Assembly: GCA_020437905.1 (NCBI GenBank)
Contig: JAGQVN010000104.1
Span: forward strand, 1 to 43,715
DNA length: 43,715 nt
DNA from: Flavobacteriales bacterium
GTDB lineage: Bacteria > Bacteroidota > Bacteroidia > Flavobacteriales_F > PHOS-HE28
Direction: 5' to 3'
Under the pieces are notes generated by a model, which worked only from the letters and a program-made list of their open reading frames with translations, was not told the origin of the DNA and ran no database searches. Position numbers and translations under genes: made by a program. Below, one piece after another: positions 2,623-6,025 of this stretch (position 1 is its first letter; each line of letters begins with the position of its first letter).

Positions 2623-2648
2623 TGTAACTTTCTTTGGCCCTGGCCGTC
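2623..2648 (+). promoter_or_regulatory. ECF-type promoter of the sigma/anti-sigma pair
   Basis: TGTAAC at 2623-2628, a 16-nt spacer and CGTC at 2645-2648, 22 nt before the sigma factor ATG. This is the classical ECF layout (AAC-type -35, CGTC-type -10). The same two boxes recur at 4516 and 5001, which suggests that the sigma factor drives its own operon. Confidence 0.7.
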
Positions 2649-2670
2649 ACACCAGCATCAGGCCCCTTGC

Positions 2671-3156
2671 ATGAACCTGCAGGAATACAACGCCGCTGTG
2701 GATCAGCATGCCGATGGCTTATACCGCTTCGCGTTGAAGCACCTGCGTGATGAGGATCAGGCGAAGGATGTGGTCCAGGACAGCTTCACCCGCTTATGGG
2801 TCAGGCTGGAGGGGGTGGATGGCAGCAAGGTGAAGAGCTACCTGTTCACCACTGCGCACCACCTGATCGTGGATGAAGTGCGCAAGCGTTCGCGGAGCAC
2901 GGTCATGGAGGAAAAGCACGAACAGCTGCGCTGGAGCGAACAGGAGCAACCCGATCTGCAGGCGGTGCTGGAAGCGGGGCTTTCCACCCTGCCGGAAGTG
3001 CAACGCAGTGTGGTGCTGCTGCGCGACCTCGAAGGGTACAGCTATGACGAGATCGCCGAGATCACCGGCCTGAACCTGGCCCAGGTGAAGGTGTACATCT
3101 ACCGGGGTCGCATGGCGTTGAAGGAATATATTGGTTCGTTGGATCTGGTGGTATGA
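2671..3156 (+). CDS. RNA polymerase ECF sigma factor (sigma-70 family)
   Basis: 161 residues, a normal length for an ECF sigma factor. Region 2 covers about residues 14-80 (LYRFALKHLRDEDQAKDVVQ, then a FTRLW core), and region 4 covers about 107-157 (LPEVQRSVVLLRDLEGYSYDEIAE followed by a helix-turn-helix ending in VKVYIYRGR). It recruits core RNA polymerase to a dedicated promoter class. The stop codon overlaps the start of the next gene by 4 bases, so sigma factor and putative anti-sigma factor are translationally coupled. The promoter TGTAAC-N16-CGTC in front points to autoregulation, and identical boxes precede the two envelope genes downstream. Confidence 0.95.
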   Translation: MNLQEYNAAVDQHADGLYRFALKHLRDEDQAKDVVQDSFTRLWVRLEGVDGSKVKSYLFTTAHHLIVDEVRKRSRSTVMEEKHEQLRWSEQEQPDLQAVLEAGLSTLPEVQRSVVLLRDLEGYSYDEIAEITGLNLAQVKVYIYRGRMALKEYIGSLDLVV

Positions 3157-4463
3157 AGTTGGACCGCAGCACATACGAAGCCTGGTTGCTCGATCGCCTC
3201 GAAGGGCGCTTGAGCGCTGCGCAGGAGCGTGAGCTGGATACGTTCCTGGCTGCCAACCCGGACCTGCCCACCACGGACCTCGATGCCGCTCTTCCGACCA
3301 TCGATCCGGCTGCACCGCGTCACCCGGACAAGGCGGCTTTGCAGCAGATCGGTGATGAACTGATCATTGCTTTGTTGGAAGGGGATCTTGCTCCCGACCT
3401 GCAACGGGAGGTGGCTCAAGCGATCGCCAAGGACCCTGAGCTATCCGCCATGGCACTGCGCTATGCGCAGGTCCGCATCCAAGGCGAAGGGTCCTTCGAG
3501 CAGAAGAACGATCTGCTCCGCGGTCCGGAAGAGGTGCCGCTCCCGGAACTACAGGCCTTGCTCATTGCCGAGCTCGAAGGTGATCTTAGTACATCCGATC
3601 GTGCCCGGCTCGATGAGCTGGTCCGCTCGCATCCGGAACATGAACAAGAGCGGCGGGCCTTCGCGGCGACCGTGTTGCATGCCCCGTCCATCGCCTATCC
3701 GGACAAGGACGGATTACGGCGTGAGCAGGGTCGTGTCGTGGCTTTGTGGCCAAGGTTGGCCGTTGCGGCGTCGATCGCTGCGCTGTTGGGTCTGGCCACC
3801 TGGCTCCTGTGGCCCAAGACTGAACACCCTGTGGTCCCCGAACTGGCAGGTTTCGAACAGGTCAAGGAGGAGACCAAAGGACCGGCAACGGAGAGCATGG
3901 TCGAACAGCCGGTGGAGCAGGATGATGCGCACGAAGTGCCGATCCCTGCACAGAAGGATGAAGCTGTTCGTACGCCGACTTTGGTGCCCGTTCAGACAGA
4001 GCCACGGGACAAGCACCTGGCCGACAACGCGAACACTGAGGAGCCGTCGATGGAGGAACCGGTCCTGGATCAGGCGGAAGAAGCGATCGAAAAGCAACCC
4101 CTCCTGGCGGAAGTGGAGGAGAAGCCCGTGCCGATCGACCAGGGCACCGCAGTGGTGGAGATACCGGACGAGGAAGAGGAATTGCTGGCCAGGGTGGACC
4201 CATCACCTGATCGGGTATTACCCGAACGGGAGATCCCGGAACTGTCGAACGCGCTTGTGCAACACCTGCGCCGCACCGTCTTGAACGAGCAGGACAGCCG
4301 CCCCCTGGATGCCGATGATGCCGTTGCCTTCGTGGACCGCGGGATCCAAGCGGTCTCTGGCGGAATGGGCGGCGTGAAAGTGGAGCGCCAAGGCAAGCGC
4401 ATTACCCGGCTGCATCTGCGCCTGGGGCACGACCTGGGCTTCTCGGCCAGCCGGGGGCGTTAA
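3153..4463 (+). CDS. Membrane-bound anti-sigma factor candidate with three repeated cytoplasmic units
   Basis: 436 residues overlapping the sigma gene by 4 bases. One membrane segment (about 201-219) separates a cytoplasmic part from an acidic, Glu/Pro-rich, probably periplasmic part of about 215 residues. The cytoplasmic part has three units of one plan. Each opens with a leucine-rich LEGxL helix pair (LLDRLEGRLS at 12, IIALLEGDLA at 71, LIAELEGDLS at 137) running to a P[DE][LH] end, and closes with a [FP]xxKxxL box (HPDKAALQ at 57, FEQKNDLL at 115, YPDKDGLR at 182). The LEGxL...P plan resembles the sigma-binding helix of anti-sigma domains but has no zinc-binding His/Cys. The anti-sigma role is inferred from position, topology and this motif. 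Confidence 0.7.
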   Translation: MKLDRSTYEAWLLDRLEGRLSAAQERELDTFLAANPDLPTTDLDAALPTIDPAAPRHPDKAALQQIGDELIIALLEGDLAPDLQREVAQAIAKDPELSAMALRYAQVRIQGEGSFEQKNDLLRGPEEVPLPELQALLIAELEGDLSTSDRARLDELVRSHPEHEQERRAFAATVLHAPSIAYPDKDGLRREQGRVVALWPRLAVAASIAALLGLATWLLWPKTEHPVVPELAGFEQVKEETKGPATESMVEQPVEQDDAHEVPIPAQKDEAVRTPTLVPVQTEPRDKHLADNANTEEPSMEEPVLDQAEEAIEKQPLLAEVEEKPVPIDQGTAVVEIPDEEEELLARVDPSPDRVLPEREIPELSNALVQHLRRTVLNEQDSRPLDADDAVAFVDRGIQAVSGGMGGVKVERQGKRITRLHLRLGHDLGFSASRGR

Positions 4464-4515
4464 GGCGCCGCTCGTCCGTACCGAACGACCGCTCATCATT
4501 TGTCTCCCTTCTTGC

Positions 4516-4542
4516 TGTAACGATCCCTGAGCTCATCGCGTC
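4516..4542 (+). promoter_or_regulatory. ECF-type promoter of the TonB-C-like gene
   Basis: TGTAAC at 4516-4521, a 17-nt spacer and CGTC at 4539-4542, 34 nt before the ATG at 4577. It has the same boxes as the promoters at 2623 and 5001. Confidence 0.65.
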
Positions 4543-4576
4543 CTACCGGTACAAGGACCCACTAAAACCAACAGTC

Positions 4577-4942
4577 ATGAGAACTTGGAGATCACGTCTA
4601 TTCCTGCTCGCGCTGGCCACGGTGTTCACCATGGGCTACACGCGCGGTGCCGAACCCTTCCGTACCGGGACCAACACCATCGAACGCGCCGTGGCGAAAG
4701 CCATTGACAAGCACGTGGTGTTCCCGATCATGGAACGTGAGCATCACATGCTCGGCTCGGTCGAGGTCAGCTTTGTGGTGGATGGCGAAGGCCGCTTGAA
4801 GGTGCTTTCCTGTCGTAGTGGGAACCAGGACCTGGCGGCGTACGTGCAGCGCAAACTGGAAGCCATCCAGGTCCCCGGTGAGCACGACGGCATCTGGCGT
4901 ACCAGCCATGTGCGCTTCGTATTCCGTCCTGAGCAAAGCTGA
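4577..4942 (+). CDS. Small secreted protein with TonB C-terminal-like domain
   Basis: 121 residues with an N-terminal signal-like segment (about 7-24) and one domain from about 38 to 118. The pattern GSVEVSFVVDGEGRLKVLSC followed by an amphipathic helix (YVQRKLEAIQV) matches the beta-beta-alpha layout of TonB C-terminal domains, which in Bacteroidota are common as stand-alone periplasmic proteins. It lacks the membrane anchor and proline-rich linker of a true TonB, so it is unlikely to energise transport itself. It sits between the anti-sigma gene and a barrel gene and has its own ECF-type promoter, so it is probably part of the envelope response controlled by the sigma factor. Confidence 0.6.
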   Translation: MRTWRSRLFLLALATVFTMGYTRGAEPFRTGTNTIERAVAKAIDKHVVFPIMEREHHMLGSVEVSFVVDGEGRLKVLSCRSGNQDLAAYVQRKLEAIQVPGEHDGIWRTSHVRFVFRPEQS

Positions 4943-4970
4943 TGCGCAGGGTACGCATGAACGGAAGGAG

Positions 4971-4990
4971 GGGGCTGCGGCCCCTTTTTT
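4971..4990 (+). terminator. Rho-independent terminator after the TonB-C-like gene
   Basis: GGGGC/GCCCC stem with a TGCG loop followed by six T. The preceding AAGGAG can pair with the T run and extend the stem. It lies 28 nt after the stop codon and 10 nt before the next ECF-type promoter, so the barrel gene appears to be a separate transcription unit. Confidence 0.75.
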
Positions 4991-5000
4991 CTTGGGCTCC

Positions 5001-5026
5001 TGTAACAAAGCACGTGGGTCCCCGTC
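5001..5026 (+). promoter_or_regulatory. ECF-type promoter of the outer-membrane barrel gene
   Basis: TGTAAC at 5001-5006, a 16-nt spacer and CGTC at 5023-5026, with the ATG at 5051. It is placed directly behind a terminator. It is the third copy of the boxes seen at 2623 and 4516. Confidence 0.7.
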
Positions 5027-5050
5027 CCACCCATAACAAGCGAACGTATC

Positions 5051-6025
5051 ATGAAGCATCTTCTCTTCGCCCTTCTGTTCAGTGCGCCTTGCCTGGCTCT
5101 GGCTCAGAACGACACGACCACCACTGAGCGTGGGCATTCCCTGGAGCTGGGCGTGAGCGCAGCGGACGGTGCCTTTGCCAAGGTGAATGCCAAGGACGGT
5201 CCCGATCGGATGGTGCCGGACACCTTCCGCGTAACGACCAAGCGCCGCCTGTACACGGTGCTCACCGAATGGCGCATCCAAGGTTCCTCCGAGGATAGCC
5301 TCGAGCGACGCATGAAGCAGTTGCGCACCGAACGTCGGAACCTCTTCACCAATTGGGCGGGTGTGGAGTTCGGTTTCAACAACTGGATCACGCCATCCGG
5401 ATCATTCGACCTGCCCGAGGAGGACCGCTATATGGAAGCCACGCCCTTGGGCTCGCGCTTCTTTGCGATCAACGTGATGGAACAGAAGATCGAGTTCGGC
5501 TCGCACCATGCCGGCCTCTTCACCGGACTGGGTATGGAGTTCCTCAACTACCGCTTGAGCAACAACGCCCTGCTCCAGTTCGACGGGGACAGCCTTTATG
5601 GTGTGCCCATGGAAACACCTGACCTGCGGAAGAACAAGCTGCGGCAGATCGGCATCCGTGTCCCGCTCATGTTCGAGTTCAACACAAAGCGCGCACCCAT
5701 GCCCGATCCAGCCACGTTGGCCGGCAAGAAAATGTCAGACCCCTTCAGCCGGAAGAACAATTTCAGCTTCGCCTTCGGGGTGGTCGGCTCCTGGTACTTC
5801 GAGAACATGTACAAGGTGAAATACCGCCAGGATGGTGAAGCCCGGAAGGACCGGACCAAAGGCTCCTTCAACCTGAACCCGCTTCGGGTCTACGGTCGGG
5901 TGCAATTGGGTTATGGCTCTTTCAACCTGTTCGCCGAATATTCCCTGACAGAACTAGTTCAGGCCGGCAAGGGACCGGAGCTGGTCCCGGTGAACATCGG
6001 CATCACGCTCCTGGCTTTCAACTGA
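5051..6025 (+). CDS. Outer-membrane beta-barrel protein (porin family-like)
   Basis: 324 residues with a clear signal peptide (KHLLFALLFSAPCLALAQ). The mature part has alternating hydrophobic strands and aromatic girdle residues (WAGVEFGFNNWI near 98, FSFAFGVVGSWYFENMY near 240, VYGRVQLGYGSFNLFAEYSL near 285) and a C-terminal strand ending in phenylalanine (NIGITLLAFN). This fits the OMP_b-brl type of small Bacteroidota barrel. It has its own TGTAAC-N16-CGTC promoter, making it a likely output of the nearby ECF sigma factor. Ligand or function cannot be read from the sequence. Confidence 0.75.
   Translation: MKHLLFALLFSAPCLALAQNDTTTTERGHSLELGVSAADGAFAKVNAKDGPDRMVPDTFRVTTKRRLYTVLTEWRIQGSSEDSLERRMKQLRTERRNLFTNWAGVEFGFNNWITPSGSFDLPEEDRYMEATPLGSRFFAINVMEQKIEFGSHHAGLFTGLGMEFLNYRLSNNALLQFDGDSLYGVPMETPDLRKNKLRQIGIRVPLMFEFNTKRAPMPDPATLAGKKMSDPFSRKNNFSFAFGVVGSWYFENMYKVKYRQDGEARKDRTKGSFNLNPLRVYGRVQLGYGSFNLFAEYSLTELVQAGKGPELVPVNIGITLLAFN

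Follow-up and report, generated by a model that had tools for sequence, protein, structure and literature searches.

An ECF sigma factor/putative anti-sigma factor module of Bacteroidota and its differently composed candidate promoters

ECF sigma factors are numerous in Bacteroidota; to our knowledge, few of their promoters have been mapped. Among the closest described systems, EcfO/Reo and Das/Dma of the Bacteroidales couple an ECF sigma factor to an anti-sigma factor that spans both membranes, and envelope stress has been proposed as their signal (PMC9308784, PMC13114119, PMC13088901). In Reo and Dma, the barrel is part of the anti-sigma chain itself (PMC9308784, PMC13088901). A different precedent is the algD promoter of Pseudomonas aeruginosa, where AlgU/MucA and AlgR bring together an ECF sigma factor and a LytTR activator (PMC4064291). 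In Flavobacterium psychrophilum, the parts of the report on which we draw describe a sigma-ECF motif, SM6, with a CGT -10 box and mapped starts; its targets include an ECF/anti-sigma pair and several type IX secretion genes, and no -35 sequence is given there (PMC9723704).

Here, we describe a locus from a window of 43,715 bp, the whole stretch of Flavobacteriales DNA that was analyzed. Like EcfO/Reo and Das/Dma, this locus combines a Bacteroidota ECF sigma factor, an unusual putative anti-sigma factor with a long periplasmic part, and an outer-membrane barrel within the system. Like algD, it would place an ECF sigma factor and a LytTR activator on one promoter. It shares with the SM6 targets, likened by description, a CGT -10 box and an ECF/anti-sigma pair, and differs in its target genes. 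From sequence, we consider it likely that the locus encodes an autoregulated module of an ECF sigma factor and a transmembrane anti-sigma factor with four conserved units, whose promoters would be plain (P1 and P3), activator-gated (P2), or double (P4). What appears to be new is that the promoters of one ECF module's conserved targets are differently composed. An ECF promoter would be joined to a second signal by two conserved designs, one with a LytTR-type operator in fixed phase and one with a housekeeping promoter that overlaps it.

The sigma factor, the putative anti-sigma factor, and the barrel

The sigma factor (161 aa; 2671..3156, plus strand) carries regions 2 and 4 only, the domain content of ECF (group IV sigma-70) proteins. 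Pfam places region 2 at residues 10-75 (PF04542, 3.2e-14) and region 4 (r4_2) at residues 100-150 (PF08281, 3.9e-17), and the protein scores 83.3 bits against TIGR02937, above the cut-off of 42.9. Its best full-length NCBIfam match is NF058625 (sigma_PG0214, GFO_1088 family ECF sigma factor), which covers residues 1-154 of 161 at E 6.7e-35; since its 120.3 bits fall short of the curated cut-off of 130, it is not a formal member of that family.

The next gene starts 4 nt before the sigma gene ends and encodes a putative anti-sigma factor of 436 aa (3153..4463, plus strand), a role assigned from position and topology. A sigma-adjacent position and a transmembrane segment are present in every family member checked. 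Pfam detects no anti-sigma domain in the window protein, and zf-HC2 in 2 of 22 members. The structural model predicts cytoplasmic helical repeats (residues 8-173), one transmembrane segment (198-219), a disordered stretch (225-362), and a C-terminal HH-EEE domain (364-433; block pLDDT near 60-80); the periplasmic part would be a disordered tether capped by a small folded domain. The better-conserved parts of the protein are its N- and C-terminal ends.

Further downstream, a gene at 5051..6025 (plus strand) encodes an outer-membrane beta-barrel protein of 324 aa, assigned from its family domain and predicted structure. OMP_b-brl_2 is matched by 30 of 41 family members, the window member alone giving no match. 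The model (pLDDT 83.8) predicts an N-terminal beta segment and a helix followed by the barrel; the best matches in a structural search (Foldseek) are mostly generic outer-membrane barrels, none below E 1e-3.

The arrangement differs from that of Reo and Dma: the chain of the putative anti-sigma factor is predicted to stop at a small domain in the periplasm, and the barrel, which we liken to theirs by kind alone, is separate and apparently co-regulated. Because the barrel is a separate gene, the locus does not belong to the Reo/Dma type. The predicted architecture hints at an analogue, in two pieces, of the anti-sigma factors Reo and Dma that span the envelope. The protein ends in a conserved domain, predicted to be folded, at the tip of a ~140-residue tether, and the pair is accompanied by a barrel gene through much of the phylum; it is therefore plausible that the tail senses the condition of the outer membrane, possibly by way of the barrel. 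A bolder version, which we put forward tentatively and think rather unlikely to hold in full, is a two-piece trans-envelope sensor: the P3 barrel would hold the end domain of the anti-sigma factor, loss of or damage to the barrel would free the sigma factor, and the outputs would be gated individually (P1 and P3 plain, P2 by a LytTR protein, P4 by sigma-A/ECF overlap). Should the anti-sigma tail have the barrel as its partner, two genes here would correspond to what Reo and Dma contain as fused sensors.

Candidate promoters in the window and their conservation

The motif TGTAAC-N15-18-CGTC occurs exactly three times in the 43,715 bp scanned, at 2623, 4516, and 5001, all on the plus strand; dinucleotide shuffles (n = 100) give a mean of 0.18 and a maximum of 1. 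P1 (TGTAAC-N16-CGTC-ACA; 2623..2651) lies ahead of the sigma/anti-sigma operon, P2 (TGTAAC-N17-CGTC-CTA; 4516..4545) ahead of a gene for a TonB-C-like protein, and P3 (TGTAAC-N16-CGTC-CCA; 5001..5029) ahead of the barrel gene. P1 was identified by motif scan, orthologous loci, and genus loci; P2 and P3 by motif scan and genus loci. The three sites have CGTC-N-Y-A in common, and the end of the CGTC box stands 22 nt (sigma), 34 nt (TonB-C-like), and 24 nt (barrel) from the ATG. A first-pass annotation of this DNA had picked out these identical boxes before the same genes, with spacers of 16, 17, and 16 nt, and had found no further pair in the window by eye; the motif scan agrees with it on both points.

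We collected 80 Bacteroidota loci with relatives of the sigma factor (45-76% identity in all loci used). These were fetched by protein alone, so the promoter played no part in their choice. In 77 of the 80, TGTAAC is found no more than 120 nt ahead of the sigma start (shuffles: mean 2.9, maximum 8), a pattern consistent with the autoregulated promoter that is typical, if not universal, for ECF sigma factors. In the 76 scorable loci, an NGTN box follows TGTAAC after 16 or 17 nt: CGTC in 42, CGTA in 16, CGTT in 9, and others in 9. In 189 kb of control upstream DNA, the strict motif occurs at only 3 sites.

In distant loci, sites fall at about -50 and at +1500 to +1900 of the sigma start; in many of the 80, the second site, ~1.5-1.9 kb into the locus, directly precedes the barrel gene. 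Several Bacteroidales loci have it before a longer reading frame (~500-550 aa) whose C-terminal part matches the barrel. The N-terminal part of such frames (L012 from 7659, L025, L033, L045) is repetitive and by eye resembles a head GIN/DUF2807 domain. A Crocinitomicaceae genome (L060) instead has a TonB-C-like gene, with a site of its own, upstream of the sigma gene. In Brumimicrobium aurantiacum (locus L086), the candidate promoters of the sigma and barrel genes are both present. In Chitinophagaceae loci L062, L080, L081, and L088, an extra TGTAAC site about -330 to -400 from the sigma start precedes a short secreted frame of 66-73 aa upstream of the sigma gene.

Closer to home, two or three sites recur at matching places of the locus in the majority of sister genomes; the genus loci are related, so that their counts are not independent events. 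In G002 and G017 (L134, L136), the sigma/anti-sigma operon has the opposite orientation with respect to the genes for the TonB-C-like protein and the barrel. TGTAAC boxes are kept before each gene despite the inversion; the strict CGTC is not kept at all of them.

Because the three sites lie close together, they might be taken for chance occurrences or for copies of one recent duplication. The sequences of their spacers, however, are unrelated to one another, and the sites are conserved across phylum and genus; this phylogenetic footprint already refutes such an origin, to which we give almost no credence. Conservation instead supports the three sites as real promoters. The first-pass annotation had proposed that the sigma factor drives its own operon and two envelope targets, and had named conservation of the boxes upstream of orthologous genes as a point on which this should stand or fall. 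The boxes are conserved there, which favors the proposal at the level of sequence. This would amount to a promoter code open to testing and valid across Flavobacteriales, Bacteroidales, and Chitinophagales, along with target genes that are conserved as a set.

An intrinsic terminator (4963..4992, plus strand) separates the TonB-C-like gene from P3, as had also been noticed at first reading. Folding finds a stem-loop of -21.7 kcal/mol (z -2.96) within 4955-4998. Across the genus, stems resembling a terminator stand ahead of P3 at 19 of 32 loci; the corresponding counts are 1 of 34 for P2 and 2 of 24 for P1. The terminator before P3 is not among the sites listed by a consensus scan.

Elements adjoining P2 and P4

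The gene behind P2 (4577..4942, plus strand) encodes a secreted TonB-C-like protein of 121 aa, named for the TonB_C matches of its family. Pfam TonB_C is found at E <= 0.1 in 13 of 23 members (best 2.4e-8); the window member, at 0.035, is below the cut-off, and the assignment holds more for the family than for this member.

A direct repeat, CCGCTCGTC-N12-CCGCTCATC (4468..4497, plus strand), ends 18 bp upstream of the P2 -35 box and is a candidate LytTR-type operator. Described LytTR sites consist of 9-11 bp repeats separated by 11-13 bp, as a rule a short way ahead of a -35 box (PMC6193735, PMC4847170); the P2 element has this geometry, with two direct repeats of ~9 bp at such a distance near the -35 box. 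Its consensus in the genus is CCGYTCATC-N12-CCGYTCATC, a 9-12-9 architecture in which the inner spacing is 11 instead of 12 in five cases. The best pair scores at least 14/18 in 35/35 P2 sequences; a repeat of this type at that score is present at 0/24 P1 and 0/34 P3 sites. Between the repeat and TGTAAC lie 18 bp in 31 of the 35, 17 bp in one, and 8 bp in three, the last placing the repeat one helical turn nearer the -35 box than in the 18-bp cases. Allowing up to one mismatch, we found the repeat in its own genome only at P2. A reversed-sequence control also yields about one match per genome, so this uniqueness is weak evidence, and position and phase carry the argument.

A role of the repeat as an RNA hairpin or terminator was rejected, as its folding does not exceed that of shuffled sequences. 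The window contains no identifiable LytTR gene. Eleven LytTR proteins are encoded elsewhere in the genome, none of them linked to the P2 repeat: a connection through similar repeats near their genes was considered and discarded, as only weak 15/18 matches occur near two. The P2 repeat would be the operator of an activator, probably one of the LytTR family. Its half-site CCGYTCATC resembles the AlgR core CCGTTCGTC (PMC4064291). The AlgR sites at algD lie near -394 and -470, with one more at -45, and include no direct repeats spaced by 12 bp (PMC4064291); unlike algD, P2 has its direct repeat in fixed phase next to the -35 box. In one sister genome (G008; L139 3841-4212, 4384-4749), the TonB-C-like gene is tandemly duplicated; the box of the second copy reads GGTAAC, with no repeat upstream of it.

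The first-pass annotation had called the regulon self-contained. We scanned the whole genome with an extended motif, TGTAAC-N15-18-CGTCNYA, and obtained five matches. Three are the window sites P1-P3, a fourth falls within a reading frame, and the fifth, on contig C239, is the site that we call P4. Genome matches L004-L006, L008, L009, and L094-L096 were rejected because they lie inside or across long reading frames. P4 precedes the gene for a lipoprotein of 171 aa, of a metal-binding type, with an HMA domain (PF00403, 9.7e-8) and the motif GMSCEMMCG. Orthologues of this lipoprotein are present in 38 of 44 genus genomes. Among the 30 HMA loci read, 27 have TGTAAC-N16/17-CGTC before the gene, one has TGAAAC, and two end at the contig end; among eight more distant orthologues, the boxes occur only in G018. 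As P4 is conserved at this distant gene, the regulon is not self-contained.

The region read upstream of the HMA gene is without TGTAAC in seven sister genomes (G002, G004, G013, G017, G019, G022, G049). In the same seven, TGTC or GGTC replaces CGTC at P2, a pattern that would fit a joint weakening of the two sites in a single lineage.

P4 reads TAnnTTTGTAAC in 27/27 sequences, a string found in 0/88 elsewhere (0/34 P2, 0/22 P1, 0/32 P3). Within it, a housekeeping -7 box, TAnnTTTG, shares the letters TG with the ECF -35 box. TAnnTTTG is the -7 box given for Flavobacterium sigma-A in the parts of the SM6 report used here (PMC9723704). Overlap with a housekeeping box could make the C239 site a chance match; this was ruled out, as the overlap itself is conserved in sister-genome orthologues. 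The candidate second inputs, the repeat at P2 and the sigma-A overlap at P4, had both been overlooked at first reading.

The P2 repeat and the TAnnTTTG box could each be independent of the ECF boxes, merely adjoining them without joint action. The LytTR regulator of the repeat is, after all, a candidate suggested by sequence, and the sigma-A box could drive the HMA gene alone. This independence sits poorly with the fixed distance of the repeat, whose three clear exceptions to the 18 bp of 31/35 sequences are one helical turn shorter, with the sharing of TG by the P4 boxes in 27/27, and with the absence of both elements from P1 and P3. We judge it quite unlikely and prefer joint action of each element with the ECF boxes.

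The proposed circuit and the readers of the boxes

In the mechanism that we favor, a signal at the anti-sigma factor would free the sigma factor from its membrane anchor. The freed sigma factor, which we infer to be the reader, would recognize TGTAAC at -35 and CGTC-NYA at -10, 16-17 bp apart, and so serve four units in the genus: its own operon (P1), the periplasmic TonB-C-like protein (P2), the outer-membrane barrel (P3), and the HMA lipoprotein (P4). P1 would provide positive feedback, with the extra anti-sigma factor acting as a brake. P2 would fire only with a second regulator active, probably a LytTR-family activator on the 9-12-9 repeat, in fixed helical phase. P4 would be a double promoter, with a sigma-A -7 box over the ECF -35 box, giving basal and induced expression.

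It had also been claimed that the locus directly shows which sequence this ECF group recognizes. The boxes were read correctly; their exclusiveness to the group did not survive comparison. Sister genomes contain a second ECF group (28% identical to the present one), whose own gene directly follows TGTAAC-N17/18-CGTC; the same boxes precede a divergent gene for a small membrane protein of ~115 aa (L275 1752(-)/1846(+), L276 1755(-)/1848(+), L277 1515(+), L100, L103, L108, L212). The boxes alone therefore do not identify the ECF group, and cross-recognition or overlapping specificity is possible. This second group probably occurs in other Bacteroidota as well; no close copy was found among the ECF genes of the window's own genome (92.5% complete).

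The boxes may then be real and yet read by several ECF sigma factors, which would make the locus one node among overlapping ECF regulons and not the regulon of a single sigma factor. Beyond the second group itself, this reading draws on the F. psychrophilum study, whose authors, in the parts drawn on here, suggest overlapping ECF regulons for the CGT-box motif (PMC9723704). Three observations weigh on the other side: TGTAAC placed as a promoter was found before none of the 11 other ECF-like genes of the window's own genome, the spacers differ (16/17 versus 17/18), and a Brumimicrobium genome has just two extended-motif sites, both at the sigma locus. We regard a shared readership as rather unlikely and retain the sigma factor of the locus as the probable reader.

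Among the papers searched, none names TGTAAC together with Bacteroidetes ECF sigma factors; the motif may already be listed in the published ECF group tables. At a further locus, in one sister genome (L101, G003:C155), the motif lies 39 nt before the gene for a secreted protein whose C-terminus, by eye, resembles a type IX secretion signal.
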